Part shown: positions 1 to 15,883 of the stretch, in pieces
Layout: each line of letters begins with the position of its first letter
Position numbering within the stretch: the first letter of the stretch is position 1
Translations under genes and position numbers: made by a program
Origin: Apilactobacillus kunkeei
GTDB taxonomy: Bacteria > Bacillota > Bacilli > Lactobacillales > Lactobacillaceae
DNA length: 49,621 bases
Assembly (NCBI RefSeq): GCF_001308195.1
Contig: NZ_JXDF01000004.1
Coordinates: forward strand, 1-49,621
Reading direction: 5' to 3'
The notes under the pieces: generated by a model
Seen by the model: only the letters and a program-made list of their open reading frames with translations
The model's database searches: none
What the model was told of the DNA's origin: nothing

Positions 1-3000
1 CTATCTGACCAAAAATCTAATGCGAAGTCCCAATTGGATGCTGAAGCAACCAAGGTCAAACAAGAAATTGATGCTGACAATAGTTTAACTAGCTCAGAAA
101 AAGCAACTCAAAAATCTAATGTAGATAGTGAAAAGTCAACTTATCAAGGTAAGATTGACGAGGCCACCAATGCTGATGATATCAAAACGGCATCTCAACA
201 AGGTATCAAAGACATCGATGCTCAATACGTTGCAGGTAAGACATCAGTAGCCGATCAAAAATCCAATGCAAAAGCCCAACTGGATGCTGAAGCAACCAAG
301 GTCAAACAAAAAATTGATGCTGACAATACTTTGACTAGTGATGAAAAAGCAAAGCAAAAGGCCAATGTTTACAGCACTAAATCAATTGATCAAACTGCTA
401 TTGATATGGCAACCAATGCTGATGATATTAATACTGCATGGCACAAAGGCATCCAAGATATTGATAATCAATACATTCCTGGTAAGACATCTCTAGCGGA
501 CCAAAAGGCTAATGCTAAGAGTCAATTAGATGCGCAAGCAGCCAAGATTAAGAGTGATATCGAAAATGATGCAACATTAACGCAAAATCAAAAGAATGAC
601 CAAATGAATCAGTTAGCAGCTCATAAAGTTGCTGCTGAGCAAGCAATTGATAATGCTGCTGATGCTGATGGCATTAATAAAGCATTGGATGATGGTAATT
701 CAAATATGGCAGAAGACCATCAACCTGGCCAGGCAATTGATAATCAAAAGGCATCTGCAAAACAAGCTATTCAAGCTGAGGCCAACAAGGTAAAAGCTGC
801 TATTGCTGCCGATTCCAGTTTGACTAGTGAAGAAAAAGATAATCAAAATAGTGCTGTAGATTCAGCTTTTGCCGCGGCCCAAAGTAATATTGACCGTTTA
901 ACAAATGCCGACGATATCAATACAGCAAAGAAGCAAGGTATAACAGACGTTGATGGCAAACACGTATCAGGTACACCATTAGATACGCAAAAATCTACCG
1001 CTAAGTCACAAATTACTAATGAAGCAAACAAGATTAAGCAAGACATCGCAAACGATGCAACATTAACTCAAGCGCAAAAAGATGCTCAAACTGCTAAGGT
1101 AAATGCCGACGCAGATGCCGCATCAAAGGCAATTGATAATGCAAGTGATGCCGACAGTGTTAATAAAGCAATCAGTGATGGAACAAGCAACATTGATGCT
1201 GATCACACTTCCAAGGCACCAGTAGACAGTCAAAGATCAGATGCTTTAAACCAATTAGATGAAAAAGCAGCTAAGGTTAAACAAGACATCGCAAACGATG
1301 CAACATTAACTCAAGCGCAAAAGGATGCTCAAACTGCCAAGGTAGACGCCGACGCAGCCGCTGGTAAACAAGCAATCCAAAACGCTACTGATGCTGATAG
1401 CATCAACAAGGCACTAAGTGATAACAGTGGTCAAATCGCTAAAGACCATCAACCAGGAAGCTCAGTTGATAATCAAAAGGATTCTAACAACACTAACTTG
1501 GATGCTGAAGCAACCAAGGTTAAGAACCAAATCGATGCTGACGTTTCATTAACTGGTAAAGAAAAAGACCAACAAAAGAGTAATGTGGAAAGCGTAAAGG
1601 CAGCTGCTGAAGCTAAGATTAATGCTGCAACTAATGCTGATGGTATTAAGGCTGCATACGACCAAGGTATCAAAGATATTGATGCTCAATATGTTCCAGG
1701 AAAGACTTCATTACCTGACCAAAAGGCTAATGCAAAAGCTCAATTAGATGCCCAAGCTGCCAAGATTAAGCAAGACATCGCAAACGATGCCACATTAACC
1801 CAAAGTCAAAAAGATGCCCAAATGGCCAAGGTTGATGCTGATAGACAATCAGCTGAATCAGCAATTGACAATGCTAAAGATGCCGATGGTGTTAACCAAG
1901 CAATTAGCGATTGGAATGGAACTATTGAAAAAGATCACCAACCAGGTAAGCCAATTGCTGATCAAAAAGCTGACGCTAAGGCAGCTATTCAAGCTGAAGC
2001 TGACAAGGTTAAAGCGGCAATCGATGCAGACCCAACTTTAACTAGTGATGAAAAGGCTGATCAAAAGAACAAGGTTGATAGTGTAAGCTCTGCTGAACAA
2101 GCTAAGATTGATGGTTTAACAAATGTGGATGACATCCATAACCAAATCACTCAAAGTGTGTCCGACATTGATGATGTACACCAATCAGGTGAGAGTTTAG
2201 CCGACCAAAAGGCAGCTGCCAAGTCACAATTGGATGCTCAAGCAGCTAAGATTAAACAAGACATCGCAAATGATGTGACATTGACTCAAGCTGATAAGGA
2301 TGCTCAAAGCGCCAAGGTTGATGCAGATACAAATGCCGGCAAACAAGCAATCGACAACGCAGCTGATGCTGATAGCATTAACAGCTTGATTAAAGACAAC
2401 AAAGATAAGATTGCTGCCGACCACGTTTTACATGCATCGGTAGATGACCAAAAGGCAAGTAATAAGAAGACATTGGACGACCAAGCAGCCAAAGTTAAAC
2501 AAGATATCGCAAACGATAACACATTGACTCAAGCTGAAAAGGATGCTCAAACTGCTAAGGTAGAAGCTGATAAGGAAGCTGCTGAAAAGGCAATCGACGC
2601 TGCCTTAGATGCTGAAGGTGTCAAGAAAGCCACTGATGCTGGTAACGATAAAATCAATGGTGACCATGTACCAGGTGAATCAGTTGATGATCAAAAGGCT
2701 GCTGCTAAGAAGCAATTGGATGACCAAGCAGCTAAGATTAAACAAGACATCGCAAACGATACAACATTAACTCAAGCTGAAAAAGACGCCCAAAGCGCAA
2801 AGGTTGACGCTGATAGAGACGCTGGCGAAAAGGCCATTGATGGCGCAATTAATGCCGATGACATCAACAAGTTAATCAGTGACACTACAGGTAAAATCAA
2901 TGTTGACCACACTTCAGGCCAAGCAGTAGCTGATCAAAAGACAGCTAAGAAGAATGACCTAGATACAGAAGCGAACAAGGTTAAGGCAGCTATTGATGCT

Positions 3001-6000
3001 GACAACACCTTAAGTCAAGCCGAAAAGGATGCTCAAAAGGCAGCCATTGATGCTGATGTTAACGCTGGTAAGAAGGCTATTGACGCTGCTTCCAACGCAG
3101 AAGGTATCAAACAAGCCGTAGACAGTACCAACCAAAAGATTGATGGTGAACACCATTCAGGTAAGTCTGTGGCTGACCAAAAGAATGATGCTAAGTCACA
3201 AATGGATGCTGAAGCCGATAAGGTTAAGGCAGCTATTGACGCTGATGACACTTTGACCGGTGCCGAAAAAGCACAACAAAAGAAGAATGTTGATGATGCT
3301 AACAAAGCTGCCCAAGCTAAGATTGATGATGCTTCAAATGCAGATGAAATTAACGGTGCAATCAAAGATGGTAATACTAATATTGATGGTCAACATAAAT
3401 CAGGTACATCAGTTAAGGATCAACAAGATGCTGCTAAGAAGCAATTAGATGATCAAGCAGCTAAGATTAAGAATGATATTCAAAATGATGTAACATTAAC
3501 TTCTGACCAAAAGAAGGAACAAACAGATAAGGTAGATGCAGACAAGACTGCTGCTGAAAAAGCTGTATCTGCTGCTACAAATGCAGACGATATTAATAAG
3601 GCAATTAGCAATGGAAACGATAAAATTTCTAATGACCATCAATCAGGGACATCATTAGATAAGCAAAAATCTGACGCCAAAAATGCGGTTGATGCTGCAG
3701 CTAAAAGTACAAAAGATAAAATCGATTCTGATAACACCTTAACCAGTGCAGAAAAAGAAGCACAAAAGAACAAGGTTGATAGTGAAGCAGAAGATACTAA
3801 GAAGAACATTGATGCAGCAACTAATGCAGACGATATCAATGATTTATCTGACAGAATGATTGGAAATGTTGATAACAACTATGCACCAGGAACACCATTG
3901 TCAGATCAAAAATCTGCTGCTAAGAAACAACTATCTCAAAAATTAGATGATTTAATTAAACAAATCTTCGATGATGACACATTAACTACCGACCAAAAGA
4001 ATGCTCAAAAAGCTCAAGCAACTTCAGATATGAATGAAGCTTCAAATGCAGTTGATAACGCCAAAGATGCAGATAGCATTAACAAAGCAGTTAGTGATGG
4101 TAACGGTAAGATTAATGCTGATCATAAACCAGGCACATCAGTAGATGATCAAAAGTCTGCCGCTAAGCAACAATTAGAAGCACAAGCTGCTAAGACTAAA
4201 CAAGACATCCAAAACGATGCCACATTAACTCAAGCACAAAGGGATGCCCAAGTTGCTAAGGTAGATGCAGACAAGACTGCTGCTGAAAAAGCGGTTGATG
4301 ATGCCACAGATGCTGATTCCATTAACAAGGCAATTGCTGATGGAAACAACAATATTTCTAACGATCATCAATCAGGAACTTCAGTAGATACTCAAAAGGA
4401 CAACGCCAAAGCTCAACTAGATGCTGAAGCAACCAAGGTTAAGAGTGATATCGACGCAGATAACTCCTTAACCAGTGATGAAAAAGACGTTCAAAAGGCT
4501 AAGGTTGATGCCGATGTCAAAGCCGGAAAAGAAGCTATCGACAATGCCACAGAAGCTGATAACATCAACAAAGCAGTTAGTGATACTAACGCTCAAGTTG
4601 ATAAGGAACACGTACCAGGCACACCAGTAGATAGTCAAAAATCTGTTGCTAAGAAACAATTGGAAGACCAAGCTACTAAGATTAAGCAAGACATCACAAA
4701 TGACGCCACATTGACCCAAGCAGAAAAGGAAGCACAAATCGCTAAGGTTGAAGCTGACAAGACTGCTGGAGAAAAGGCAATTGATGATGCCAAGAACGCG
4801 GATACAATTAACCAAGCATTGGTTGATAGCAATAACTCTATCGTTTCTGATCACGTTCCAGGTAAGTCACTAACTGACCAAAAGGACGCAGCTAAGAAGC
4901 AACTAGATGCTGAAGCTGACAAGACCAAGGCAACCATTGATGCTGACAAGACATTGACTAGTGCTGAAAAAGCACAACAAAAGGCTAATGTGGATGCCAA
5001 GAACAAGGCAGCCCAAGACAATGTTGATGCTCAAACTAATGCTGACAACATCAATGCAATGACTGCTCAAGGTGTTGAAGAAATTGATGCTCAATATGTA
5101 CCAGGTAAGGTTTCATTGAGTGATCAAAAGACTAATGCCAAGGCTAAACTTGAAGGAGAAGCTACTAAGGTTAAGAACGATATCTTAAATGACGCCACAT
5201 TAACTAAGGCAGAAAAGGATACCCAAATGGCTCAAGTAGATGCTGATAAGGCCGCTGGAGAAAAGGCTATCGAAGATGCTTTAGATGCTGATGGTATTAA
5301 CCAAGCAGTCAGTGATAGCAATGCCAAGATGGATGCCGATTACGTTCCAGGCAAGACTTCACTACCAGACCAAAAGAGCAACGCCAAGGCTCAATTAGAT
5401 GCCCAAGCTGCCAAGATCAAGAATGACATCGCAAATGATGCCACTCTAACCCAAGCAGAAAAGGATGCTCAAATGGCTCAAGTAGATGCTGATAAAGCTG
5501 CCGCTGAACAAGCCATCGACAACGCACCAGACGCTGACAGCATTAACCAAGCTATCAGCAATGGTAATACTAAGATTGCTTCTGACTATGTTCCAGGCAA
5601 ACCAGTTGATGACCAAAAGAGTGCCGCTAAGGCTGACCTAGATGCCAAGGCCGCTAAGGTTAAGAATGACATCGCAAACGATGCCACATTGACTCAATCT
5701 GAAAAGGATACTCAAATGGCCAAAGTTGACGCTGATAAAGCAGCCAGTGAACAAGCTATTGATAATGCAACTAATGCTGATAGCATTAACCAAATCATCA
5801 GCGACACCAACGCAAAGATTGATGCAGATCATGTTGCCGGTCAATCATTGGATGCTCAAAGATCAGCTGCAAAGGCAAGAATTGAAGAAGAGGCCAACAA
5901 GGTTAGAGCGGCAATTGATGCTGATAAAACATTGAGCAGTGCTGAAAAGGCACGTCAAAAGAAGAATCTTGAACGTGCCAAGGTCAATGCTGAAGCAGAA

Positions 6001-6063
6001 ATTGATTCATCAAGAAATGCAGATACCATTAAAGCTAGGATTTTGCCACAATTACACATCTTG
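1..6063 (+). repeat. 25 tandem DUF1542-like repeats, 81-82 codons each
   Basis: Counting the conserved D-Q-K start gives 25 units; the first five are spaced 246, 246, 243 and 243 bases. Each unit has a Q-K start, an AK(I/V)K helix, a turn of type DATLTQ or DNTLTS, an A(I/V)D(N/A)A-DAD-IN helix, and a linker of type DHxPG or QYVPGK. Two unit types are mixed: one with IDAD..LTS and one with ANDATLTQ. Unit 17 is divergent (IFDDDTLTTDQ) and unit 25 leads into the C-terminal modules. Most bases differ between units, so this is an old, in-frame protein repeat rather than a fresh DNA expansion. Confidence 0.9.
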
Positions 6064-7059
6064 GATATTCAACATGTTAAGAAACAAAACAACGGAAGTG
6101 GTCCTGAACAAACTATTCCACGTAATGTTTACATGGTTAAGAACTTCTACAGATACCTAAGCACTACCTTCACTAAGAAGAACCGTGTTCAAGGTTACAA
6201 GGCTACATCCCGTCCAAACGCTGTAATGTTTAGAATCATCGGTGAAACTACCAACAAGAACGGTGTAAAGAGATACAAGGTATACCAAATCGTTGTTAAG
6301 AAGAACGGCTCATTCAAAGTGGACCGTAAGAAGTGGGGTTACATCACCGCTAAACCTTCTTACATGAGACCTTTGTACTACCGTAGCAACGTTCAACAAA
6401 TCAAGGTTATTGGTAAGGGAATCCGTGAATACAAGAACGTTAAGTTAAGTAAGGCTGTGAAGGGCTACAAGCACGGTACTGTTTTGAAGGTCAAGGCAGT
6501 CAAGAAGTACGGTAGCACATACAGATTACAATTAACTAACGGTCACTACATTACCGCTAACAAGAACTTGGTTCGTAAGCAAACAACACCACGTAACGTC
6601 TACATGGTTAAAGGATTCTACAGATACTCAAGTGTTAACTTCAGTCACAAGAACAGAATCCAAGGTTACAAGAAGCAAGCTCGTCCAAACGCTGTGATGT
6701 TCAGAATTGTTGGCGAAACTACCAACAAGAATGGACTAAAGAGATACAAGGTATACCAAATCGTTCGTAACAAGAAGGGACTATTTAGAGTAGATCACAA
6801 GAAGTGGGGTTACATCACCACTAAGCCTTCATACGTAAAACCTTTGTACTACAGCAGCAAGGTACGTTCGGTTCGCGTAATCGGTTCTAGAATCCGTGCC
6901 TACAAGAACGTTAAGTTAACTAAGTCTGTTAAGTCATACAAACGCGGAACTGTTTTGAACGTTAAAGCAGTGAATAAGATTGGTACTACTTACAGATTGC
7001 AATTAACTAATGGTAGTTACATCAGTGCTAACAAGAACTTAGTTCAAAAAATTAAATAA
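1..7059 (+). CDS. Giant DUF1542-repeat surface protein, 5' end outside window
   Basis: The reading frame is open from base 1 (the first codons read LSDQKSNAKSQ), so the true start, signal peptide and N-terminal domain lie upstream; about 2,352 codons are visible. The visible part is 25 tandem repeats of about 81 residues that resemble DUF1542 (three-helix rods of Ebh- and FIVAR-type cell-wall proteins of staphylococci and lactobacilli). They are followed by two basic modules of about 157 residues, which look like the DUF5776-type C-termini of Lactobacillales surface proteins. There is no LPXTG motif and no C-terminal membrane segment. The gene ends in a Lys/Arg/Tyr-rich tail, so attachment is probably non-covalent, to wall polymers. 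The likely role is a long rod-like adhesin or envelope-spanning protein. Codon use is strongly biased (AAG, CAA, GAC, GCT), as in the other surface genes here. The family is fairly sure; the ligand is unknown. Confidence 0.85.
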   Translation, partial: LSDQKSNAKSQLDAEATKVKQEIDADNSLTSSEKATQKSNVDSEKSTYQGKIDEATNADDIKTASQQGIKDIDAQYVAGKTSVADQKSNAKAQLDAEATKVKQKIDADNTLTSDEKAKQKANVYSTKSIDQTAIDMATNADDINTAWHKGIQDIDNQYIPGKTSLADQKANAKSQLDAQAAKIKSDIENDATLTQNQKNDQMNQLAAHKVAAEQAIDNAADADGINKALDDGNSNMAEDHQPGQAIDNQKASAKQAIQAEANKVKAAIAADSSLTSEEKDNQNSAVDSAFAAAQSNIDRLTNADDINTAKKQGITDVDGKHVSGTPLDTQKSTAKSQITNEANKIKQDIANDATLTQAQKDAQTAKVNADADAASKAIDNASDADSVNKAISDGTSNIDADHTSKAPVDSQRSDALNQLDEKAAKVKQDIANDATLTQAQKDAQTAKVDADAAAGKQAIQNATDADSINKALSDNSGQIAKDHQPGSSVDNQKDSNNTNLDAEATKVKNQIDADVSLTGKEKDQQKSNVESVKAAAEAKINAATNADGIKAAYDQGIKDIDAQYVPGKTSLPDQKANAKAQLDAQAAKIKQDIANDATLTQSQKDAQMAKVDADRQSAESAIDNAKDADGVNQAISDWNGTIEKDHQPGKPIADQKADAKAAIQAEADKVKAAIDADPTLTSDEKADQKNKVDSVSSAEQAKIDGLTNVDDIHNQITQSVSDIDDVHQSGESLADQKAAAKSQLDAQAAKIKQDIANDVTLTQADKDAQSAKVDADTNAGKQAIDNAADADSINSLIKDNKDKIAADHVLHASVDDQKASNKKTLDDQAAKVKQDIANDNTLTQAEKDAQTAKVEADKEAAEKAIDAALDAEGVKKATDAGNDKINGDHVPGESVDDQKAAAKKQLDDQAAKIKQDIANDTTLTQAEKDAQSAKVDADRDAGEKAIDGAINADDINKLISDTTGKINVDHTSGQAVADQKTAKKNDLDTEANKVKAAIDADNTLSQAEKDAQKAAIDADVNAGKKAIDAASNAEGIKQAVDSTNQKIDGEHHSGKSVADQKNDAKSQMDAEADKVKAAIDADDTLTGAEKAQQKKNVDDANKAAQAKIDDASNADEINGAIKDGNTNIDGQHKSGTSVKDQQDAAKKQLDDQAAKIKNDIQNDVTLTSDQKKEQTDKVDADKTAAEKAVSAATNADDINKAISNGNDKISNDHQSGTSLDKQKSDAKNAVDAAAKSTKDKIDSDNTLTSAEKEAQKNKVDSEAEDTKKNIDAATNADDINDLSDRMIGNVDNNYAPGTPLSDQKSAAKKQLSQKLDDLIKQIFDDDTLTTDQKNAQKAQATSDMNEASNAVDNAKDADSINKAVSDGNGKINADHKPGTSVDDQKSAAKQQLEAQAAKTKQDIQNDATLTQAQRDAQVAKVDADKTAAEKAVDDATDADSINKAIADGNNNISNDHQSGTSVDTQKDNAKAQLDAEATKVKSDIDADNSLTSDEKDVQKAKVDADVKAGKEAIDNATEADNINKAVSDTNAQVDKEHVPGTPVDSQKSVAKKQLEDQATKIKQDITNDATLTQAEKEAQIAKVEADKTAGEKAIDDAKNADTINQALVDSNNSIVSDHVPGKSLTDQKDAAKKQLDAEADKTKATIDADKTLTSAEKAQQKANVDAKNKAAQDNVDAQTNADNINAMTAQGVEEIDAQYVPGKVSLSDQKTNAKAKLEGEATKVKNDILNDATLTKAEKDTQMAQVDADKAAGEKAIEDALDADGINQAVSDSNAKMDADYVPGKTSLPDQKSNAKAQLDAQAAKIKNDIANDATLTQAEKDAQMAQVDADKAAAEQAIDNAPDADSINQAISNGNTKIASDYVPGKPVDDQKSAAKADLDAKAAKVKNDIANDATLTQSEKDTQMAKVDADKAASEQAIDNATNADSINQIISDTNAKIDADHVAGQSLDAQRSAAKARIEEEANKVRAAIDADKTLSSAEKARQKKNLERAKVNAEAEIDSSRNADTIKARILPQLHILDIQHVKKQNNGSGPEQTIPRNVYMVKNFYRYLSTTFTKKNRVQGYKATSRPNAVMFRIIGETTNKNGVKRYKVYQIVVKKNGSFKVDRKKWGYITAKPSYMRPLYYRSNVQQIKVIGKGIREYKNVKLSKAVKGYKHGTVLKVKAVKKYGSTYRLQLTNGHYITANKNLVRKQTTPRNVYMVKGFYRYSSVNFSHKNRIQGYKKQARPNAVMFRIVGETTNKNGLKRYKVYQIVRNKKGLFRVDHKKWGYITTKPSYVKPLYYSSKVRSVRVIGSRIRAYKNVKLTKSVKSYKRGTVLNVKAVNKIGTTYRLQLTNGSYISANKNLVQKIK
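6118..7056 (+). repeat. Two tandem basic C-terminal modules (DUF5776-like)
   Basis: Module 1 (6118-6588, 157 codons) and module 2 (6589-7056, 156 codons) both begin PRNVYMVK and share NAVMFRI.GETTNKNG, KRYKVYQIV, KKWGYIT.KPSY and a closing YRLQLTNG.YI.ANKNLV. They are rich in Lys, Arg and Tyr. The second half of each (YKNVKL..VK.YK.GTVL.VKAV) is the part that resembles DUF5776. The inferred role is binding to the cell wall, because no sorting signal is present. Confidence 0.75.
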
Positions 7060-7165: not shown

Positions 7166-7204
7166 TAATTATTAGAAAACGATTAGAGAAATTGAGTGAT
7201 GACG

Positions 7205-7753
7205 ATGAAGATTATCAATACATTGGGCCCTAAGCAGACCGATAGCTATCAAGCCGCCCAGTATCTTGCAGAAAGACAAGAAGTGGATATCAGACTACAC
7301 GCTAGTTTTGATGATATTTATAGTGACCTAGCAAAACTAAAAGGGCAATATATGTTGGTACCAGTGGCTTTCCGCAGTGCGCAAAGTAATGATAACTGGG
7401 TCGATAATAACTACAAATACGTCGATCAACTAAAGATTATCGATACTTTTTTCCTACCGACCATGCCGATGATTTTGGTGCATAATCTACACCAAGATAA
7501 TCAAAAAGTCGTTTTACACCCTGCTACATCAGCGTTCTTACATGATTTTGACGTCGATTTAATCCATGACTACGTTTCCAGTAAACCAGAAGCACTGAAA
7601 AATTTTTTACGCGGTGATTATGCCTATGCGATTGTCAGTGAGGAATGGTTTGAAAGCTCGACGAATCAAGGGATTGACGGTAGTCAGTTTGAAGTGATTA
7701 AACGTTTTTCTCCTACCATGATTTGGTGTCTGTATAAAATAATTGGCAAATAA
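7205..7753 (+). CDS. BacA / prephenate-dehydratase-like protein
   Basis: This 182-residue protein opens with INTLGPKQTDSYQAAQYL, the start of prephenate-dehydratase folds (GPxGTxSxxAA). Throughout its length it resembles BacA, the prephenate decarboxylase of bacilysin synthesis, as I recall that sequence. Shared features are NTLGP, LHxxF, a VPxA stretch, an HP motif before an F.....DL(V/I) segment, and a C-terminal (T)MxW(C/S)L stretch. The Thr-Arg-Phe catalytic motif of true prephenate dehydratases is not visible, and there is no ACT domain. It may therefore convert prephenate in a BacA-like way or be a divergent dehydratase. The start at 7205 is preferred because TTGAGTGA at 7192-7199 is the only ribosome-site-like sequence; 7199 is an alternative. 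It has its own promoter and lies directly upstream of the aromatic operon. The fold is fairly sure, the reaction is not. Confidence 0.6.
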   Translation: MKIINTLGPKQTDSYQAAQYLAERQEVDIRLHASFDDIYSDLAKLKGQYMLVPVAFRSAQSNDNWVDNNYKYVDQLKIIDTFFLPTMPMILVHNLHQDNQKVVLHPATSAFLHDFDVDLIHDYVSSKPEALKNFLRGDYAYAIVSEEWFESSTNQGIDGSQFEVIKRFSPTMIWCLYKIIGK

Positions 7754-7756
7754 ACG

Positions 7757-7785
7757 TTGACAATTATTGCGTTTAGAATTATGCT
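7757..7785 (+). promoter_or_regulatory. Promoter of the aromatic operon
   Basis: A consensus TTGACA at 7757-7762, 17-base spacing and TATGCT at 7780-7785 begin three bases after the stop codon of the BacA-like gene. The transcript would start near 7792, giving a leader of about 350 bases before the MFS gene. Confidence 0.75.
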
Positions 7786-7841
7786 TTCTCTAATGATAAT
7801 TTAATGATATTTTAATTTAAAACCGAAGGAGGATGTAATTT

Positions 7842-7892
7842 ATGAAGAACTTAGCAGCCAGTTATTATAGCAACTATTGGTACTTTATGTAG
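7842..7892 (+). CDS. Aromatic leader peptide (16 aa)
   Basis: The reading frame MKNLAASYYSNYWYFM has an excellent ribosome site (AAGGAGG at 7826-7832, 9 bases before ATG) and ends with TAG. Six of the last nine residues are aromatic: four Tyr, one Trp and one Phe. This is the design of attenuation leader peptides such as TrpL and PheL, where scarcity of charged tRNA stalls the ribosome on the regulatory codons. All three aromatic amino acids are represented, which fits an operon of the common chorismate branch. The coding sequence at 7865-7875 is complementary to 7944-7954, so ribosome position could change the RNA fold. It lies between a strong promoter and a strong terminator upstream of the MFS-aro genes. 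I infer a regulatory rather than a cellular role for the peptide itself. Confidence 0.8.
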   Translation: MKNLAASYYSNYWYFM

Positions 7893-8090
7893 TGCTTGCA
7901 TTTGATTTGTTGGATGCAAGCACATGATGCTTGTATCTAACGAAGTTGCTATAACAAATTCGATTAGATACCTGTAAAGTCTAATCGAGTTGCTGTTAAG
8001 TGGGAGTTCGCCCGAATACTAACCGTTCGATTAGATGATTAACTAAAAAATCTAGTCGAAGGTATAACCATAAATTATATTCTTTTAGAA

Positions 8091-8127
8091 AACGTCGACT
8101 AGATTTTGTCTAGTCGGCGTTTTTTTA
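8091..8127 (+). terminator. Attenuator terminator before the MFS-aro operon
   Basis: AACGTCGACTAGA (8091-8103) pairs with TCTAGTCGGCGTT (8109-8121), 13 bp with one G-U, and is followed by a run of T. It ends 18 bases before the MFS start codon and lies inside the transcript, so it must be conditional if the operon is expressed from the 7757 promoter. Confidence 0.85.
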
Positions 8128-8145
8128 CTTCAGGGGGAATTAAAA

Positions 8146-9348
8146 ATGGAAATGATTAATGAGGATCACAATATTCATATTACAAGTAAGAAGAGATTAT
8201 CTTTAGCGTTATTCATCAATTACTTCGTGCATGGCATGGTATTGGTAATCTTGATGCAAAACATGTTGTCACTGGCACATAGCTGGTCAACTTCCATCGC
8301 AGTCGTGTCATACGTAATTTCCGGTATCGGAATTGGCCGTCTGATTGCATACCCAATCACAGGAATCCTATCCGATCGACTAAACAGAAAGACATTCGTA
8401 TTAATTGGCATGATTTTATACATCATCTTCCTATCTGCGATGCCATTTGCTAGCAACATTGTATTCGCGTACATATTAGCAATCTTGGCAGGTGTTGGGA
8501 ACTCAGCATTGGATGCTGGAACCTACACCACTTTGGTTGAAATTAACAATGGTTCAGGTAAGTCGACAGTGTTAATCAAGGCCTTCATGTCAGCGGGGGA
8601 TTTCATCCTACCACTACTAGTCTTTTTCCTAGATAGCAGACATTTATGGTTTGGAATTTCATTCATTCTTCCTGCGACCATCTTGATTTTGAACTTAGTC
8701 AACATCCTAAGTATCAAGTTCCCAGACATTCAACAAATTAACGACAGCATGGAAATGATTAGTTCATCTATCAGCAAGGTAAAGAAGATTTTTGCCACTA
8801 TCGGATTACTGGTATACGGATACACTTCAATGGCTTTAATGCTTATCTTCACCCAATGGATTACTTTGTACGGCCTAAAAGTGCTTCACCTAAGTGCGAT
8901 TACCTCACACTTCCTACTTTCCTTGTACAGTATCGGATCAATTACCGGGGTGTTAGTAATTTCATTTATTTTGAAACAAAAATCATGTGAAGAACTACTA
9001 GTCGTTATCTTGAACTTGACCGCTTTATTAGCACTTGTCGTGATTAACCTAGCAACAACAACGCTAGTCGTTGAAGCGGCCAGTCTAGTATTTGGCTTCT
9101 CAGCAGCTGGAGGGGTAATGCAAACTGGTCTAACAATCTTCATGAAACTATTCCCTAAGCACAGAGGCGCCATCACCGGAATCTTCTACTTCTTCGGTAG
9201 TATCGCTTCACTAACCGTCCCATTGGTAACTGGTTTCCTATCAACCAAGGGCATTGGTTTAGCATTCAACTTCAGCATCCTAATCTCACTAATCAGCTCA
9301 GTCTTCGTGATTTTAGTAATGATAATTATGAAATCCAACAAGGAGTAG
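8146..9348 (+). CDS. MFS transporter, first gene of the aromatic operon
   Basis: This 400-residue, highly hydrophobic protein has about 12 membrane segments. It carries the MFS loop 2-3 signature GILSDRLNRK at about residues 73-82. A central hydrophilic stretch near residues 198-215 probably marks the junction between the two six-helix halves. The start is set by GGGGG at 8133-8137. It is the first gene after the attenuator and lies four bases before the chorismate mutase gene, so it is co-expressed with three shikimate-pathway genes. It could import an aromatic precursor such as shikimate, or export an aromatic product, perhaps one made with the BacA-like protein. The sequence alone does not decide substrate or direction. 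Confidence 0.8.
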   Translation: MEMINEDHNIHITSKKRLSLALFINYFVHGMVLVILMQNMLSLAHSWSTSIAVVSYVISGIGIGRLIAYPITGILSDRLNRKTFVLIGMILYIIFLSAMPFASNIVFAYILAILAGVGNSALDAGTYTTLVEINNGSGKSTVLIKAFMSAGDFILPLLVFFLDSRHLWFGISFILPATILILNLVNILSIKFPDIQQINDSMEMISSSISKVKKIFATIGLLVYGYTSMALMLIFTQWITLYGLKVLHLSAITSHFLLSLYSIGSITGVLVISFILKQKSCEELLVVILNLTALLALVVINLATTTLVVEAASLVFGFSAAGGVMQTGLTIFMKLFPKHRGAITGIFYFFGSIASLTVPLVTGFLSTKGIGLAFNFSILISLISSVFVILVMIIMKSNKE

Positions 9349-9352
9349 GGCC

Positions 9353-9592
9353 ATGCAAGAAATCAGAAAACAAATTACCGACATTGATAACGAGATTATC
9401 AAGTTGTTAGAACAACGCTTTGAACTATGTAAGAAGGTTGGCGAGATTAAGCGTGCAAACAATCTCCCAATCTTAGACGAAAAAAGAGAACAAGAGGTTC
9501 TAGCGGGGATTGAATCCACCGCAACAAAGTACGGCGAAGAAATCAAAATCGTCTTTGAAGAAATCATGCAACAAGCTAAAAATATCGAATAG
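9353..9592 (+). CDS. Chorismate mutase, AroQ class
   Basis: This stand-alone 79-residue chorismate mutase converts chorismate to prephenate in the cytoplasm. The active-site residues line up with those of the E. coli AroQ domain at the same spacing: R5, R22, K33, D42, R45, E46 correspond to R11, R28, K39, D48, R51, E52. A C-terminal Gln pair (Q74/Q75) could supply the last ligand. The protein should be the usual all-helical dimer. It starts four bases after the MFS stop codon and is followed 11 bases later by aroC, so it is in the same operon. Its product, prephenate, is the expected substrate of the BacA-like protein encoded just upstream of the operon. Confidence 0.9.
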   Translation: MQEIRKQITDIDNEIIKLLEQRFELCKKVGEIKRANNLPILDEKREQEVLAGIESTATKYGEEIKIVFEEIMQQAKNIE

Positions 9593-9603
9593 GAGAATCA
9601 ACT

Positions 9604-10770
9604 ATGAACTTTATCACAGCAGGAGAATCACACGGACCGCAATTAACTGGAATCTTAGAAGGTGTTCCAGCAGGATTAAAACTAGATATCGACGCGATTA
9701 ACGATCAACTAGCCAAACGCCAAGGTGGTTACGGTCGTGGTAACCGCCAGGCCATAGAACACGATGTTGTTCAAATTACCGGTGGGGTTCGCCACAAGAT
9801 TACCTTGGGTTCACCAATTTCATTAACCGTGATGAACAGAGACCACAAGCACTGGAACGAAATCATGGACCCAACTGCAGAAGAAACCGCGGAAAACTCA
9901 GTCAGAAAGGTGACTCGTCCCCGTCCTGGTCATGCCGACCTAGTTGGTGGGATGAAGTACAACCACCGCGATTTTAGAAACGTTTTGGAACGTTCATCCG
10001 CCAGAGAGACCGCTATGCGTGTCGCTATCGGTGCCATCTGCAAACAACTACTAGAACAATTAGGCATCAACATTGTGGGCTACGTCAAACAAATTGGCCA
10101 AGTTAACGCCGACGTTGACCATCTACTACCGGTAGCTGAAATCGAAGACAAGATTAAGAACAATGACCTACGCGTTTTAAATGAAGACAAGGTCGATGAA
10201 GTCCACGCCATGATTGATCAAACCAAACGTGATGGTGATACCCTTGGTGGAATTATCAAGGTCGTTGCCGAAAACGTCCCAGCTGGTTTGGGTAGCTACA
10301 CTGGGTGGAATCAAAAATTCGATGCCCGTCTAGCGTTCGCCGCAATGGGTGTGAATGCCATGAAGGGGGTCGAAATCGGTGAAGGATTCGCAGCGGCTAC
10401 CAAGTTTGGTAGTCAGGTAATGGATCCAATCGACTGGAACGAAGAAAAGGGTTGGTTTAGAGACTCCGACAATCTTGGTGGGTTCGAAGGTGGAATGACC
10501 AACGGAATGCCAATTATTGTCCAAGCCGCAATGAAGCCAATTCCAACACTATACAAACCTTTAAAGAGTGTCGACGTTAACAGCAAGGAAGTCAGCAAGG
10601 CCAACATCGAACGTTCAGACGTAACGGCGATTGTTCCGGCTTCCATCGTGATTGAAAGTGTAATTGCGATTGAAATTGCCAATATCATTACCGAAACTTT
10701 CGACGGCAGCAACATGGAAAGATTAACCAGACAACTAAAGGATTACAGACAAGAAATTAAGGAATTCTAG
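9604..10770 (+). CDS. aroC: Chorismate synthase
   Basis: This 388-residue enzyme removes phosphate from 5-enolpyruvylshikimate-3-phosphate to make chorismate, using reduced FMN. Family signatures are clear: GESHGPQLTGILEGVPAG near residue 7, GYGRGNRQ at about 39-46, RPRPGHADL at about 102-110, and RNVLERSSARETA at about 122-134. The length is normal for Gram-positive AroC. The ribosome site AGGAG lies seven bases before ATG, and the gene is 11 bases downstream of chorismate mutase. It is expected to be controlled by the upstream leader-peptide attenuator. Confidence 0.97.
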   Translation: MNFITAGESHGPQLTGILEGVPAGLKLDIDAINDQLAKRQGGYGRGNRQAIEHDVVQITGGVRHKITLGSPISLTVMNRDHKHWNEIMDPTAEETAENSVRKVTRPRPGHADLVGGMKYNHRDFRNVLERSSARETAMRVAIGAICKQLLEQLGINIVGYVKQIGQVNADVDHLLPVAEIEDKIKNNDLRVLNEDKVDEVHAMIDQTKRDGDTLGGIIKVVAENVPAGLGSYTGWNQKFDARLAFAAMGVNAMKGVEIGEGFAAATKFGSQVMDPIDWNEEKGWFRDSDNLGGFEGGMTNGMPIIVQAAMKPIPTLYKPLKSVDVNSKEVSKANIERSDVTAIVPASIVIESVIAIEIANIITETFDGSNMERLTRQLKDYRQEIKEF

Positions 10771-10781
10771 GAGGAAAAGCG

Positions 10782-12071
10782 ATGAAAAAATTAGTAGTAA
10801 ATCTGAATACTGGTTTGCATGGCGACCTAGCAGTTCCAGGTGACAAAAGCATTTCTCACCGCAGTGTCATCCTGTCTTCCATCAGTGAGGGCACCAGTCA
10901 CATTCATCACTTCCTAGCTTCCGACGACTGTATTTCCACCATCAATGCCTTCCGTGAAATGGGCGTAAAAATTGATTTAGCTGGGGATGAACTAACTGTA
11001 GACGGCGTCGGTTTGAATGGATTACAAGCACCGCAAACTAAGTTAGACATGGGGAACTCCGGAACCACCACCCGTTTACTATCAGGCCTATTGGCCGCCC
11101 AAAAGTTCACCACAGAATTGATTGGTGATGACTCATTATCCAAACGACCGATGAAACGCGTGAGTGAACCGTTATCAATGATGGGTGCCTCAATTGAAAC
11201 TACCGACGGCCACTTACCAATGACCATTAATCCTGGGTATATCAAGGCGGTGAAATACGACTTACCAATTGCGAGTGCGCAGGTCAAAAGTGCGATTATC
11301 CTGGCTGCTTTAAATGCCGATGAGGACAGTGTCATTATCGAACCACAGGTGACCAGAGATCACACCGAAACGATGCTGAATCAGTTTGGTGATAGTGTGA
11401 TTGAAAGACACGGCAATGCAATTACTGTTCATCACCAACCTAAATTAACCGCACAGGACCTCAATGTTACTGGCGATATCTCATCAGCCGCATTCTTCTT
11501 GGTCGCCGCCACATTGGTACCAAACTCACACATTGTGTTGAAAAACGTCGGCATTAATCCCACTAGAACTGGGATTTTAGACGTATTAATCAAAATGGGT
11601 GCTAACATAAAACTACTTAATCAAACCAACGGCAGTGAACCAACCGCCGACATTGAAGTGACATACACACCGGATTTAAAACCAATCGAAGTGAATGAAG
11701 AAAGTATCCCATTGATGATTGATGAGTTACCCTTGGTGGCCTTATTGGCTGCTAGAGCTAATGGTCATAGCACCATCACCGGTGCCGAGGAACTGCGTTT
11801 TAAAGAAACTGACCGCATCAAGACGGTGGTAGAAGAACTTAGCAAAATCGGCATTCACATTGAAGAACTACCCGATGGTTTTTCAATCGATGGTGCCAAG
11901 GATTGGCAGGTAGTCGATTCCTCATTGGACAGTCACGGTGATCATCGAATCGGGATGACTTTGGCGGTGGCAGCACTGTTATTAGATACTGACGTGCAAT
12001 TGAATGGCGAAGATGCGATTAGCATTTCCTACCCACAATTCTTCGACCACTTACAAAATTTATCAGACTAG
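10782..12071 (+). CDS. aroA: 3-phosphoshikimate 1-carboxyvinyltransferase (EPSP synthase)
   Basis: This 429-residue EPSP synthase joins shikimate-3-phosphate and phosphoenolpyruvate. Visible motifs are PGDKSISHR at residues 19-27, GNSGTTTRLLSG near residue 90, SSAAFFLVAA in the middle, EELRFKETDRI with the catalytic region, and DHRIGMTLAV near the C-terminus. The GNSGTT(T)RL form is the one seen in Gram-positive class II enzymes. The ribosome site GGAGG precedes the start, 11 bases after aroC. It is the third enzyme gene of the operon. Confidence 0.97.
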   Translation: MKKLVVNLNTGLHGDLAVPGDKSISHRSVILSSISEGTSHIHHFLASDDCISTINAFREMGVKIDLAGDELTVDGVGLNGLQAPQTKLDMGNSGTTTRLLSGLLAAQKFTTELIGDDSLSKRPMKRVSEPLSMMGASIETTDGHLPMTINPGYIKAVKYDLPIASAQVKSAIILAALNADEDSVIIEPQVTRDHTETMLNQFGDSVIERHGNAITVHHQPKLTAQDLNVTGDISSAAFFLVAATLVPNSHIVLKNVGINPTRTGILDVLIKMGANIKLLNQTNGSEPTADIEVTYTPDLKPIEVNEESIPLMIDELPLVALLAARANGHSTITGAEELRFKETDRIKTVVEELSKIGIHIEELPDGFSIDGAKDWQVVDSSLDSHGDHRIGMTLAVAALLLDTDVQLNGEDAISISYPQFFDHLQNLSD

Positions 12072-12082
12072 GAGGTGTCGGG

Positions 12083-12577
12083 ATGGACGCAATTATTATT
12101 GGATTCATGGGCAGTGGTAAGACCACCGTCACCCAGTTATTAGCCGAGAAGTTAAACGTGAAATTCATGGACTTGGATAGTCTGATTGTCGACCACATTG
12201 GCCAATCGATTAGCGACTTCTTCGAAGACAATAGTGAAGAAAAGTTTCGAGAAGTTGAGACCAAGGTTTTAAAACAATCGGTTAGTCTAAACGGCATCTT
12301 AGCGACTGGTGGAGGTACGCCAATCTACAACGTTGATGTCATCAAGAACATGGACTTGCCGGTCTTTTTATTGGATGCCAAAGACGAGACCATCCAACGT
12401 CGGCTAAGTGAAAACGAGGGCCGTCCACTAGTAGATAAGCACGGGTTAAATGGGATTATCGAGTTGAAGCATGAACGAGACGTCATCTACAACGAGCTAT
12501 CCGACCACACTATTTTTACCGATGACAAGACACCCTTAGAGGTGGCAGACGAAATACTAAATATCCTAAGCAAATAA
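12083..12577 (+). CDS. aroK: Shikimate kinase
   Basis: This 164-residue kinase phosphorylates shikimate with ATP. It has a Walker A loop GFMGSGKTT at residues 7-15, shikimate-binding Asp32 (in MDLDSL) and Arg56 (KFREVE), the GGG turn at 76-78, and lid Arg114 (NEGRPL). The ribosome site GGAGGTG lies seven bases before ATG, 11 bases after aroA. It is the last gene of the operon and is followed by a bidirectional terminator. It is the earliest pathway step encoded here; no genes for DAHP synthase, AroB, AroD or AroE lie in the window. Confidence 0.95.
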   Translation: MDAIIIGFMGSGKTTVTQLLAEKLNVKFMDLDSLIVDHIGQSISDFFEDNSEEKFREVETKVLKQSVSLNGILATGGGTPIYNVDVIKNMDLPVFLLDAKDETIQRRLSENEGRPLVDKHGLNGIIELKHERDVIYNELSDHTIFTDDKTPLEVADEILNILSK

Positions 12578-12612: not shown

Positions 12613-13908
12613 TTATTGAATCGATGTTTTCTTTGTTTCTGGACCAAAAATCGCGATGAATAGTGAAGCAAAGATGGCAATCGCAGAGATAGCGATGAAT
12701 AGGGATGTAACCCCATGAGCCTTAATAATCCAAAGAACAAAGTAAGGGGAAAGTGTCGTCAATAGTTTAGCAACACCGTTTGCATAACCATTTCCTCTGA
12801 ATCGAAAGTCAGTGGTAAATAGTTCAGGAGCATATACGGAGATGTTGCTGGCCATTGATAGGTACATAAGCATGGTTAGTACAAAACCATTAATCAAAAT
12901 ACCGGCACTAGTAGTTTCAAAAGCATACATAATTCCGGCAACCGCAATAAGTACAAAAGAAGGAACAATTGTCTTCTTTCTACCAATCACATCGACTAGG
13001 ATTACTCCCATCAATGCACCAAGGGGAGCACCTGTCATCATGATGGTGGAGAACCACATTGAGTGAACGATGTTTAGTCCACGACTCAATAACAAGGTTG
13101 GTACCCATGATGTGAACATGTATTGGCAAAGCAAAGTAGCGGACACACCGACAGTAGCGATGATGGTACCTTTGAAGCGACTGATGTGACCGTTGTCGTT
13201 TTTCTTCATTTGGTTCTTATCATAGTGGCCATTCTTTTCTAGTTGGTTGATAATGACGTTTGCTTTCTTGTCATCATGATGACTGATTAGCCAACGTGGT
13301 GACTCTGGTAGATTACGACGCATGAACCAAACAATTAGCGCGAATACACCTAAAACGATGAACATTGAGCGCCAACCGAATCGACTTATCAAAATAGTAG
13401 ACAAGAAGAAACCAAAAGGTGCCCCCAGGTTGGCAATCACTGAGGCAAAGCCACTCCATTTACCTCTGTTTTTAACGGGAGCAAATTCGCTAACCATCGC
13501 AAACCCGGTAACGACTTCCGCACCTAATCCGATTGCAGCAATGAAGCGCATAAAGATTAGGAAATAGATGTTAGGAGAGAAGGCAGCAATTAATGTTGCG
13601 AACCCAAAGATTAATAGATTCCATTGAAATGCACTGCGTCTACCAAAGTAATCACCGATAAATCCAGTAATAATTGATCCGATAAATAAACCAAAAAATC
13701 CGGCAGATAAGAACATTGAACCCTGTGTCAGGCTAGCAAAGTGGGTGGTAACAATTGATGAGTTAACATTGCTTGCCATATAAACGTCTGAGCTATCCAG
13801 CAGTAGTCCGACTCCGACTAAACTAAACACCTTAAAAAACAAAGGTGATTCTTTTGCAGAGTCCATTCTTTCGCCAAGATTATTCTGGCTATCAATCATA
13901 TTGATCAT
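12613..13908 (-). CDS. MFS transporter, metabolite:H+ symporter type
   Basis: This MFS protein of about 431 residues has about 12 membrane segments, a loop 2-3 signature GDYFGRRSAF and the PESPRWL motif after helix 6. That combination occurs in sugar porters and aromatic-acid or metabolite:H+ symporters. The N-terminal LLDSSDVYMASNV matches the first helix of that group, with acidic residues. The start is placed at 13908: the site AAAGGA in the message is eight bases before that ATG, whereas the ATG at 13914 is only two bases from it. The gene stands alone with its own promoter and converges on aroK. Its place beside the shikimate genes makes an aromatic or organic acid a reasonable substrate guess, but this is not proven. 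Confidence 0.75.
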   Translation of the reverse strand: MINMIDSQNNLGERMDSAKESPLFFKVFSLVGVGLLLDSSDVYMASNVNSSIVTTHFASLTQGSMFLSAGFFGLFIGSIITGFIGDYFGRRSAFQWNLLIFGFATLIAAFSPNIYFLIFMRFIAAIGLGAEVVTGFAMVSEFAPVKNRGKWSGFASVIANLGAPFGFFLSTILISRFGWRSMFIVLGVFALIVWFMRRNLPESPRWLISHHDDKKANVIINQLEKNGHYDKNQMKKNDNGHISRFKGTIIATVGVSATLLCQYMFTSWVPTLLLSRGLNIVHSMWFSTIMMTGAPLGALMGVILVDVIGRKKTIVPSFVLIAVAGIMYAFETTSAGILINGFVLTMLMYLSMASNISVYAPELFTTDFRFRGNGYANGVAKLLTTLSPYFVLWIIKAHGVTSLFIAISAIAIFASLFIAIFGPETKKTSIQ

Positions 13909-13982
13909 AAGCATTATCCTTTCGTGATAAAAAAATGTTGGATTTATCCCATTTATCCATGACCATTCATAATTTCAGACTG

Positions 13983-14343: not shown

Positions 14344-14627
14344 TTTTAAAATAATGATAAATTGATAACGCCGAAGAGCATTCTAAAATATGTGATCTAA
14401 TTTACCGAGAAATTAGACTTAAGTTTTTTAAAGAGAGCATTGGTTGCTGTGACAATGCATTAACTTAAATCGAAAAGTCGATATTATGATGAATTTTTTT
14501 CGAGAAATTCTGGTGCGACTACCATTATCAATGTCTGAGTATATATCTGGTGAATGTGAATTCGAGAAAGTACTCAATGAGGCTGGTTATGTGAGTAATC
14601 AGCGAATAAAGGTGGTACCACGTTAGG

Positions 14628-14680
14628 CGTCCTTTCTATTCTGACCATTTAAATGGTTTGGGATAGTTAGGACGTTTTTT
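14628..14680 (+). terminator. T-box-controlled terminator before leuA
   Basis: CGTCCT (14628-14633) pairs with AGGACG (14669-14674), with an inner stem built on CTATT / GATAG and ACCAT / ATGGT, then a T run. It directly follows the T-box motif, whose GGACC-like bases would compete for the 5' arm. Confidence 0.8.
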
Positions 14681-14707: not shown

Positions 14708-15883
14708 ATGACAAAAGAGGATAAGAAGATTCAGATTTTTGATACATCACTAAGAGACGGTGAACAAACCATTGGAGTGAACTTTTCCATTGATCAAAAA
14801 GTAAAGATTGCTCAACAAATGGAAAAATGGGGAGTCGACGTCATTGAAGCTGGTTTTCCAGTCGCTTCAAAGGATGACTTTAAAGCCGTGAAGGCAGTAG
14901 CGGAGAGTGTTAATCGAGTTTGCGTCACTGGTTTAGCCAGAGCCAAACAAGGCGACATCGATGCATGTGTGGAAGCAACCAAGAATGCTAAGCACAAACA
15001 AATCCATGTCTTTATCGGGACTAGCCCAATTCACCGTGAATACAAATTGAACATGACCAAAGAAGAAAACTTAGCTGCCATTCATAAATGGGTTAGCTAT
15101 GCTAGACAATTCTTCGACATCGTTCAATTCTCACCTGAAGATGCAACCAGAACTGAACCTGACTACTTAGTAGAAGCAATCAATACAGCCATCGATGCTG
15201 GCGCAAGTGTTATCAACATTGCAGACACCGTTGGATATACCAATCCAATCGAGTTTGGCCAGTTATTCGATTACTTAAGAGCAAACGTTGAACGTTTTGA
15301 CGACGTAGTCTTCTCCGTTCATTGTCATGATGATTTAGGAATGTCGGTCGCAAACGCAATCGCCGGAGTTCAACACGGTGCCTCAAGAATTGAAGGAACC
15401 GTCAACGGAATTGGTGAACGTGCTGGAAATACAGCGCTAGAAGAAATTGCGGCGGCATTCATGGTCAGAAATGATTACTACCATTTCACCACTAACATTA
15501 ATTTAAAAGAAACTAAAAAAACTGCAGATATGATCAGTGAATTTACTAAGATGGCGATTCCAAACAATAAAGCGGTGATTGGAAACAATGCATTCTCACA
15601 TGAATCGGGAATCCACCAAGACGGGATGTTAAAGAATCGCAGCACCTACGAAATCTTAACTCCACAATCTGTTGGAATGGATGCGACCCACATCGTTTTA
15701 GGTAAACTATCTGGTTCACACGCGGTCATGCAAGAATTACAAAATATCGGTTTCGATGTTTCAAAAGAAGAAATGAAGAAGATTTTTCCAGTCTTCAAAA
15801 GTGTTGCCGACCATAAAGCAATTATTGACGACAACGACTTAAAAATAATTATGAAAAGAGTAGGAGTGATGTCTCATGCCTAA
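14708..15883 (+). CDS. leuA: 2-isopropylmalate synthase, short form without regulatory domain
   Basis: This 391-residue enzyme condenses 2-oxoisovalerate and acetyl-CoA. The TIM-barrel signatures are present: DTSLRDGEQT at residues 12-21 (R16, D17 catalytic and metal), HCHDDLG near residue 205 (metal His pair), NGIGERAGN near 234, and FSHESGIHQDG near 300. The usual protein is about 510 residues; here the sequence stops shortly after the linker helices (DNDLKIIMKRVGV). The C-terminal LeuA dimerisation domain that binds leucine for feedback inhibition is therefore missing. The end is clean, because leuB starts eight bases before the stop with no frameshift debris. The AGGAGG site precedes the start. 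Control by leucine may rest mainly on the T-box. Confidence 0.9.
   Translation: MTKEDKKIQIFDTSLRDGEQTIGVNFSIDQKVKIAQQMEKWGVDVIEAGFPVASKDDFKAVKAVAESVNRVCVTGLARAKQGDIDACVEATKNAKHKQIHVFIGTSPIHREYKLNMTKEENLAAIHKWVSYARQFFDIVQFSPEDATRTEPDYLVEAINTAIDAGASVINIADTVGYTNPIEFGQLFDYLRANVERFDDVVFSVHCHDDLGMSVANAIAGVQHGASRIEGTVNGIGERAGNTALEEIAAAFMVRNDYYHFTTNINLKETKKTADMISEFTKMAIPNNKAVIGNNAFSHESGIHQDGMLKNRSTYEILTPQSVGMDATHIVLGKLSGSHAVMQELQNIGFDVSKEEMKKIFPVFKSVADHKAIIDDNDLKIIMKRVGVMSHA

Follow-up and report, generated by a model that had tools for sequence, protein, structure and literature searches.

The RNA element ahead of an aromatic amino acid operon in the window, i.e. the whole 49,621-nt stretch of DNA that was analyzed, is very probably a ribosome-mediated transcription attenuator. 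We propose that it senses charged tRNA-Tyr and tRNA-Phe, and here also tRNA-Trp, via the codons of a leader peptide; there are no experimental data for it. We observe a reading frame with conserved codons, two sets of stems that both show compensatory changes, a stop codon placed at P2, the first stem of one set, and an exchange of leader codons on one and the same RNA scaffold. It is also likely that a single ancestral attenuator of the Lactobacillales underlies these elements. Its scaffold after the stop codon would have been kept and its specificity rewritten by codon swap (Tyr/Phe, Phe alone, Tyr alone or Ile/Leu/Val) as it spread over genes for synthesis and uptake of aromatic and branched-chain amino acids. 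The chain of stems can gain two steps, as in Apilactobacillus, with its sense unchanged, and a proposed aromatic riboswitch and the small RNA sRNA_2410 would be members of the family.

The leader and its operon

The leader peptide ORF at 7842-7892 (forward strand, as are all features below unless stated otherwise) has 16 codons, from the ATG at 7842 to the TAG at 7890-7892, with the translation MKNLAASYYSNYWYFM. Its control codons are Y8, Y9, Y12, W13, Y14 and F15, and six of its last nine residues are aromatic, as a preliminary description of this DNA had pointed out. The good ribosome site of that description is the Shine-Dalgarno sequence AAGGAGG at 7826-7832, 9 nt 5′ of the ATG. The promoter that had been claimed upstream stands on weaker ground. 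A putative sigma-70 promoter, TTGACA-17-TATGCT, is present at 7757-7785 (TTGACA at 7757-7762, TATGCT at 7780-7785), and the three Apilactobacillus relatives, like the window, have TTGACA 5′ of their leaders. However, five promoter-like sites were found, compared with 4.2 ± 2.0 in shuffled sequences, so that the match alone is not above chance. The folding energy of the leader RNA (7792-8135) is −127 kcal/mol, compared with −69.2 ± 4.8 for 100 shuffles (z −12.1). The terminator expected 3′ of the leader is found as a stem, P9, in which 8087-8104 pairs with 8108-8125, with a T run to 8126.

The controlled operon has the gene order given in the preliminary description. It starts with the gene for an MFS transporter at 8146-9348 (Pfam MFS_1, E 1.5e-32), followed by chorismate mutase of the AroQ type at 9353-9592 (Pfam CM_2, E 8.4e-22), aroC for chorismate synthase at 9604-10770, aroA for EPSP synthase at 10782-12071 and aroK for shikimate kinase at 12083-12577 (Pfam SKI, E 6.3e-36). 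The MFS protein is 79, 77 and 68% identical to those of the named relatives A. kunkeei, A. nanyangensis and A. timberlakei, respectively, which assigns the window to Apilactobacillus.

Firmicutes are usually described as controlling such genes by T-boxes and TRAP, and both classes were considered and rejected for this leader. The T-box model (RF00230) has 33 matches in the genome, none of them at 7757-8126. A TRAP target consists of about 11 (G/U)AG triplets in a row, spaced 2-3 nt apart; 12 such triplets occur in 7786-8125, and the longest run with these spacers is 1. With 33 T-box matches in the genome, T-box and leader-peptide systems coexist. Elsewhere in the window, at 14397-14637, a T-box-like RNA that scores 63.3 bits, short of the gathering score of 93, precedes a 2-isopropylmalate-synthase-like gene at 14708-15883.

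Other genes near the operon were also noted. Upstream of the leader, 7196-7753 encodes a 185-aa protein weakly similar to prephenate dehydratase (Pfam PDT, E 1.1e-4, below the cut-off). No leader was seen before this gene in the window. Its homologue at one of our loci, L324 (33% identity), has a Phe leader read by eye as MQKHNTQFNFSFFR, and a second leader, MNNLLGNINKNFEDNFAYFI, lies immediately 5′ of the copy in A. timberlakei. Further upstream, 34-7059 encodes a 2341-aa protein with many similar repeats, which by eye is probably a surface protein. A second MFS transporter gene, at 12613-13914 on the reverse strand, is convergent with aroK; its nearest relative is the aromatic acid/H+ symport subfamily, with a score below that subfamily's cut-off.

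Conservation of the leader peptide

Matches to the MFS protein were found in 167 of 397 Lactobacillaceae genomes, and 110 of these loci were examined (30 returned and 80 chosen, mostly the best). A leader was counted when it had a Shine-Dalgarno sequence, 11-40 codons and at least five aromatic residues among its last 10. Upstream of the MFS orthologue this filter matched at 82 of the 110 loci, compared with 0 of 110 for the reverse complement and 7 of 110 for the reversed sequence. A named set, the best 80 of 119 MFS loci found, has leaders in Limosilactobacillus, Liquorilactobacillus, Lentilactobacillus, Secundilactobacillus, Levilactobacillus and Fructobacillus. The leader of Lactiplantibacillus plantarum is MTQFNTTAYYYGFAYFR. 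In Sporolactobacillus, which we take to belong to a family other than Lactobacillaceae, 10 of 11 loci have a leader. The script found none in 38 of 190 loci (the 110 and the 80 named, sets that overlap in part). Some of the filter-negative loci have a leader under looser criteria (L035/L193, L036, L127 and L269) or by eye (L084), and others are MFS genes in other contexts.

Among 93 distinct leader ORFs, a count that excludes three groups in which the script picked the wrong ORF (L107/L231, L239 and L120/L255), the last nine codons are 66% aromatic, compared with 4.6% for the preceding codons. These percentages are inflated because the filter itself demands aromatic residues. The strand controls, the codon changes and the test with model R2 (below) do not depend on the filter in the same way. 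Between close pairs we counted 563 synonymous changes where 330 were expected and 699 non-synonymous changes where 932 were expected; the pairs are not independent. The preliminary description would have been contradicted by a lack of conservation of the short frame or its aromatic codons in relatives, and the 82 of 110 loci and the synonymous excess bear it out on both. A short ORF with a ribosome binding site near the 5′ end is present, and its control codons match the amino acid that the regulated genes handle and are conserved as codons.

Tyr is present in all 93 ORFs and Phe in the last nine codons of 91. Trp occurs in the last nine codons of only 20 and anywhere in the peptide in 31. The combination of all three aromatic amino acids that had been proposed is thus real in the window leader but is not a general rule. 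In Apilactobacillus the window species shares the Trp codon with A. nanyangensis and A. kunkeei, and A. timberlakei has Phe-Ala instead of Tyr-Trp. Judged from these sequences alone, Trp is an extra of the lineage.

The leader is not tied to a position directly before the MFS gene. In at least eight named loci the MFS gene lies inside the operon and the leader is 1.87-1.92 kb upstream (L234, L241, L238, L245, L261, L263, L267 and L268). Taxa with such a distant leader and other genes before MFS are Fructobacillus, A. ozensis, A. xinyiensis and Lactobacillus sp. Sy-1, and at L281 (inferred to be A. xinyiensis) the leader is directly 5′ of aroE. A separate chorismate mutase-aroC unit in Lentilactobacillus (genus inferred) has its own Tyr/Phe leader in three of three loci (L167-L169).

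Two loci, L044 and L119, carry what by eye are decayed leaders, with the aromatic codons lost and the stems remaining; at L044 the pairing P1 seems to be kept through changes on both arms. A DNA pattern for YY.FAYF was rejected as a means of finding leaders, having matched in 82 of 395 genomes with many matches outside leaders and in a backward control as well. It nonetheless served to find second leaders near chorismate mutase-aroC genes.

A chain of alternative stems

The leader RNA can form nine stems, eight of which make up a chain. P1 pairs the control codons (7865-7875) with 7944-7954. P2 pairs 7892-7901 with 7914-7923, its 5′ arm starting at the final base of the leader stop. P3 pairs 7906-7922 with 7928-7944, P4 pairs 7933-7940 with 7964-7971, and P5 pairs 7957-7969 with 7979-7991. 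P6 (7979-7990 with 8025-8036) and P7 (8026-8036 with 8050-8060) are found in Apilactobacillus only, among the leaders compared. P8, the antiterminator, pairs 8047-8059 with 8095-8107, and the terminator P9 completes the series. Each stem from P2 to P9 has one arm in common with the next, so adjacent stems are mutually exclusive and the RNA can adopt either P2-P4-P6-P8 (ON, with the antiterminator) or P3-P5-P7-P9 (OFF, with the terminator).

The proposed switch builds on the placement of the leader stop. That the leader is translated, that ribosomes stall on it, that polymerase reads through and that the stems fold in the order given are all inferred. A ribosome of the usual dimensions, assumed here, would occlude the 5′ arm of P2 when at the stop and leave it free when stalled at Tyr12 or Trp13. 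When the tRNAs for Tyr, Phe and Trp are charged, the ribosome would reach the stop and cover this arm; P3 would form, then P5, P7 and P9, and the operon would be off. A ribosome stalled on Tyr or Trp codons would leave the arm free, so that P2 blocks P3. P4, P6 and P8 could then form, and polymerase would enter MFS-chorismate mutase-aroC-aroA-aroK. Without translation the off state would be held by P1 together with P3.

In an alignment comparison the stems are retained across four Apilactobacillus species. A. kunkeei keeps 8 of 10 pairs of P2 and 13 of 17 of P3 in the alignment register, with the others nearly complete. For A. timberlakei the register leaves 6 of 13 pairs of P5 and 6 of 12 of P6, low counts that arise because indels shift the register; its own sequence forms all nine stems, with 12 pairs in P1 and 16, 13, 8, 16, 14, 12, 16 and 15 in P2 to P9, respectively. 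When read by hand, leaders of L. plantarum and Lentilactobacillus lack P6 and P7, which gives a chain of six steps, compared with eight in Apilactobacillus. The two extra steps leave the sense of the switch unchanged. An automatic search for stem chains in 46 leaders found no terminator in six, the window among them, and no chain in seven. Among the remaining 33, 24 of the 30 outside Apilactobacillus allow six steps, six allow only shorter chains and none allows eight; eight-step chains were found only in the three Apilactobacillus relatives, alongside shorter alternatives. That the longer chain is peculiar to Apilactobacillus therefore rests on a rough search.

Two wider alignments bear on the pairing. 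In A5, which comprises 43 leaders of many other genera with stems defined on one member (L206), pairing is found in 94.8% of cells for the off stems P1, P3, P5 and P9 and in 96.1% for the on stems P2, P4 and P8, compared with 25-40% when the structures are slid by 1-3 columns. P1 is the weakest helix (88.4% paired). Both sides have changed in 15 of 41 off pairs (shuffled mean 6.7) and in 10 of 27 on pairs (shuffled mean 6.1). The number of pair types in the on stems of A5 is not above that of shuffles, since 74 of 500 reach the observed value. In A8, which comprises 25 leaders mainly of other Lactobacillales families, P2 and P4 are 97.6% paired and P3 with part of P5 98.6%, compared with 19-50% for slid versions. 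The antiterminator and the terminator exclude each other, and both are conserved through compensatory changes, as expected of an attenuator.

Folding with ribosome positions

Equilibrium folding was computed with a ribosome placed at each codon and several transcript ends. For window transcripts ending at 7995 or 8064, the off stems win at all ribosome positions tried. For a transcript ending at 8040, the on stems are predicted with stalls at Ser10, Tyr12 and Trp13, and not at Tyr9, Tyr14 or Phe15. For one ending at 8107, stalls from Tyr8 to Tyr14 give P8 a predicted value of 0.89-0.92, regardless of whether P2 leads, and a ribosome at the stop still gives 0.36. In A5, with the ribosome at the stop, P2 beats P3 in 0 of 43 leaders, and P8 beats P5 in 12 of 43. 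P2 beats P3 in 16 of 27 leaders for a stall at a Phe five codons before the stop, in 19 of 43 for a Tyr eight codons before it and in 0 of 11 for a Trp three codons before it. The calculations are partly supportive, in that equilibrium folding agrees with the switch for some transcript lengths and stall sites only. Because of this restriction, the order in which the stems fold must decide the switch, with co-transcriptional timing assumed.

A family across the Lactobacillales

A covariance model, R1, was built from 38 Lactobacillaceae leaders, none from Apilactobacillus. R1 leans to aromatic leaders because the last codons of the leader are included. It matches the window with 50.9 bits (E 3.4e-7 within its own genome). 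At E 0.001 it has matches in 53 of 395 Lactobacillales genomes; a stricter filter for many genomes missed the window itself. A weak second match in the same genome (C18:55703-55820, E 0.06), before a gene that by eye encodes ribosomal protein S13, was rejected as chance because no aromatic leader is present there.

The R1 loci examined (49 of the 59 matches listed) have 48 leader ORFs, 46 of them Tyr/Phe and two Ile/Leu; L285 has no clear start codon, and the leader ORFs at L323 and L324 were assigned by eye. Downstream genes were classed by comparison with reference proteins typed by Pfam. At 46 loci they encode 24 binding proteins of the PF04392 type, eight AroE, three NhaC-type antiporters, two APC permeases, two SBP_bac_3 and two LivJ-type proteins, one PheA, one prephenate-dehydratase-like protein, one D-2-hydroxyacid dehydrogenase and two proteins that this comparison left unassigned, by eye a chorismate mutase and an MFS protein. 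The remaining three loci (L273, L282 and L293) have MFS downstream. One of the PF04392 proteins is nearest to NCBIfam TrpX, below the TrpX cut-off.

Two types of leader among these loci were noted separately. At L283, L287 and L288, Tyr-rich leaders (KYYRNYAYFA and alike) precede the NhaC-type antiporters, which hints at a link of these antiporters to tyrosine. At L323 a Phe leader, by eye MAQVKLHNAVFFNSNFR, precedes the D-2-hydroxyacid dehydrogenase gene.

At three R1 loci (L299, L321 and L322) the Rfam family RF02863, sRNA_2410, overlaps the R1 match on the same strand. At E 0.001, RF02863 has matches in 157 of 295 genomes, 71 of them above its own cut-off. None (0 of 14) of the control genomes, Lactococcus lactis among these, has one, so that not all members of the order carry the family. 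We examined 40 RF02863 matches, chosen to cover seven families and including some near-identical pairs. All 40 have a Tyr/Phe leader at the 5′ end, with one (L339) in which the script ranked another ORF first and the aromatic ORF at the match start was used. The same-strand genes downstream are 28 of the PF04392 type, ten aroE, one aroF and one SBP_bac_3. The window leader itself has no match at the gathering score in an Rfam scan, and the RF02863 model does not match the window at the gathering score or even at E 1. The window is tied to the RF02863 family solely via models R1 and R2. On comparison of sequences, without functional data, the Enterococcus ‘sRNA_2410’ belongs to the attenuator family.

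As RF02863 is filed, the element could instead be a trans-acting small RNA that lies upstream of these genes by chance. A 195-nt sRNA_2410 was indeed detected by RNA-seq and Northern blot (PMC5593968), but a terminated leader would give the same signal, and the leader ORF ahead of same-strand genes in all 40 matches examined speaks against this reading. We regard this explanation as most improbable; a role in trans of the terminated product is not excluded. As for the attenuator, the preliminary description had placed it in Lactobacillaceae and before an aromatic operon of this type. That restriction does not hold, as the scaffold is found in several Lactobacillales families, before aroE or aroF, pheA and transporter genes.

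Codon exchange on one scaffold

A second model, R2, was trained on only that part of 23 sequences which follows the leader stop (21 from Tyr/Phe leaders and two from Ile/Leu leaders, with no Apilactobacillus or MFS leader). As the training sequences start after the stop, R2 is free of any leader codon. It matches the window at 7893-7988, starting one base past the stop, with 31.6 bits (E 0.0029 over ten loci); among the ten, L196 was missed and L226 was found only at E 0.05. At E 0.01, R2 has matches in 139 of 246 genomes.

We examined 70 R2 loci (30 returned and 40 chosen), 11 of which were training loci. All 70 contain a short ORF whose stop falls between −4 and +6 relative to the point where the match begins; in two (L415 and L418) the script ranked another ORF first, and the aromatic ORF at the match start was used. 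The leader codons are Tyr/Phe-rich in 63 and Ile/Leu/Val-rich in seven, and none of the seven was in the training set. The genes after the 63 Tyr/Phe leaders are 34 of the PF04392 type, 25 aroE, three SBP_bac_3 and one ABC permease gene. The seven Ile/Leu/Val leaders precede ilvB (acetolactate synthase), ilvA (threonine ammonia-lyase), two ilvE (branched-chain aminotransferases) and three genes for LivJ-type binding proteins. The codons thus change with the amino acid of the downstream gene, which fits codon sensing and would not be expected of ligand binding.

These results bear on the possibility that the RNA is an aromatic amino acid riboswitch that binds Tyr, Phe or a precursor directly. 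Such a reading could draw on the good conservation of the RNA part and on the short terminated and long read-through forms that arise from one start site in elements of S. agalactiae, probably related to ours (PMC4448216). It does not account for an ORF stop at the same RNA position in 70 of 70 loci, nor for the change to Ile/Leu/Val codons before ilvA, ilvB, ilvE and livJ-type genes on the same scaffold. Moreover, synonymous codon variation exceeds expectation, and a binding pocket is not expected to track a reading frame. We consider a riboswitch extremely unlikely.

A nascent-peptide arrest leader like TnaC, in which the peptide (often ..YFSYFR or ..GFAYFR) would stall the ribosome near the stop with a free aromatic amino acid, also seems improbable. 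The C-terminal residues are conserved in many leaders, including non-aromatic ones and a final Arg, which speaks for such a peptide. However, the Apilactobacillus MFS leaders (..YFM, ..YFN and ..YFI) lack this Arg, and leaders with Ile as control codons retain it. It therefore looks like a feature of the RNA or of the stop context rather than a part of the sensor, and the middle residues may be explained by the P1 pairing. Arrest at the stop would in any case cover P2 and favor the terminator, and would not replace the sensing of starvation by the attenuator.

In a number of leaders the stop lies three codons further on (..YFRSCL and like), with the ORF entering the 5′ arm of P2 (L336, L338, L339, L361, L364-L366, L369, L385, L391, L414, L416-L418, L424, L427, L433-L436 and L443).

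Discussion

In an order rich in bacteria from food, the gut and clinical settings, classical ribosome-mediated attenuation appears to serve in the control of genes for aromatic amino acids. The analysis offers a function for a family that Rfam lists merely as a small RNA, and an alternative, based on codons, to a proposed riboswitch. With codons exchanged while the scaffold stays the same, nature provides a test of codon sensing; the exchange suggests that the leader could be re-addressed by a change of codons alone. Transporters of uncertain substrate, namely the MFS family of the operon, the PF04392 ABC systems, the NhaC-type antiporters and the APC permeases, are linked to Tyr or Phe.

The class of attenuator is known; within the literature searched, this very widespread form in the Lactobacillales was found undescribed as such. 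In the open-access literature, without subscription papers and supplements and to the extent that the texts were available, no leader-peptide reading of these Lactobacillales elements was found. Leader peptides as such are known in Firmicutes (PMC9413887) and include those of leu-ilv in Lactococcus lactis and of ilv in Staphylococcus aureus and Listeria (PMC6123439), and His leaders are known in bacilli (PMC2965389). These are likewise leader peptides for amino acid genes, but for other amino acids.

The closest precedents were interpreted differently. Two S. agalactiae elements, gbs2033 and gbs1262, were identified by RNA-seq and found to be conserved in Lactobacillales, the gbs2033 type also occurring before aroFBC-tyrA of E. 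faecium; both were proposed to be aromatic amino acid riboswitches (Rosinski-Chupin et al., 2015; PMC4448216). The term ‘leader peptide’ is absent from its main text. Like our element, they are 5′ elements with terminators ahead of operons, there of ABC transporters; unlike it, they were taken to bind a ligand. From its position and gene, and not from its sequence, we infer that the gbs2033 element probably belongs to the attenuator family. The RF02863 RNA, sRNA_2410, was reported by Sinel et al. (2017; PMC5593968) and differs in being filed as a small RNA gene. The uORFC-13-1 motif before aroF in Acholeplasma, for which a uORF with Phe codons ahead of a terminator was proposed (PMC8632094), resembles our element in its control codons within a uORF, its terminator and its shikimate gene. 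It differs in being known from 24 sequences of one genus and environmental samples.

The his, trp, leu and pheA operons of enterobacteria are controlled by leader-peptide attenuators, and the E. coli his leader likewise uses a chain of segments. With these systems the element shares a short ORF with codons for the regulated amino acid, mutually exclusive stems and an intrinsic terminator. Attenuation by the his leader peptide has been described in general terms (PMC9413887). The Lactobacillales elements differ from the enterobacterial attenuators in having six steps (L. plantarum and Lentilactobacillus) or eight (Apilactobacillus), together with P1, which pairs the control codons with RNA beyond P3.
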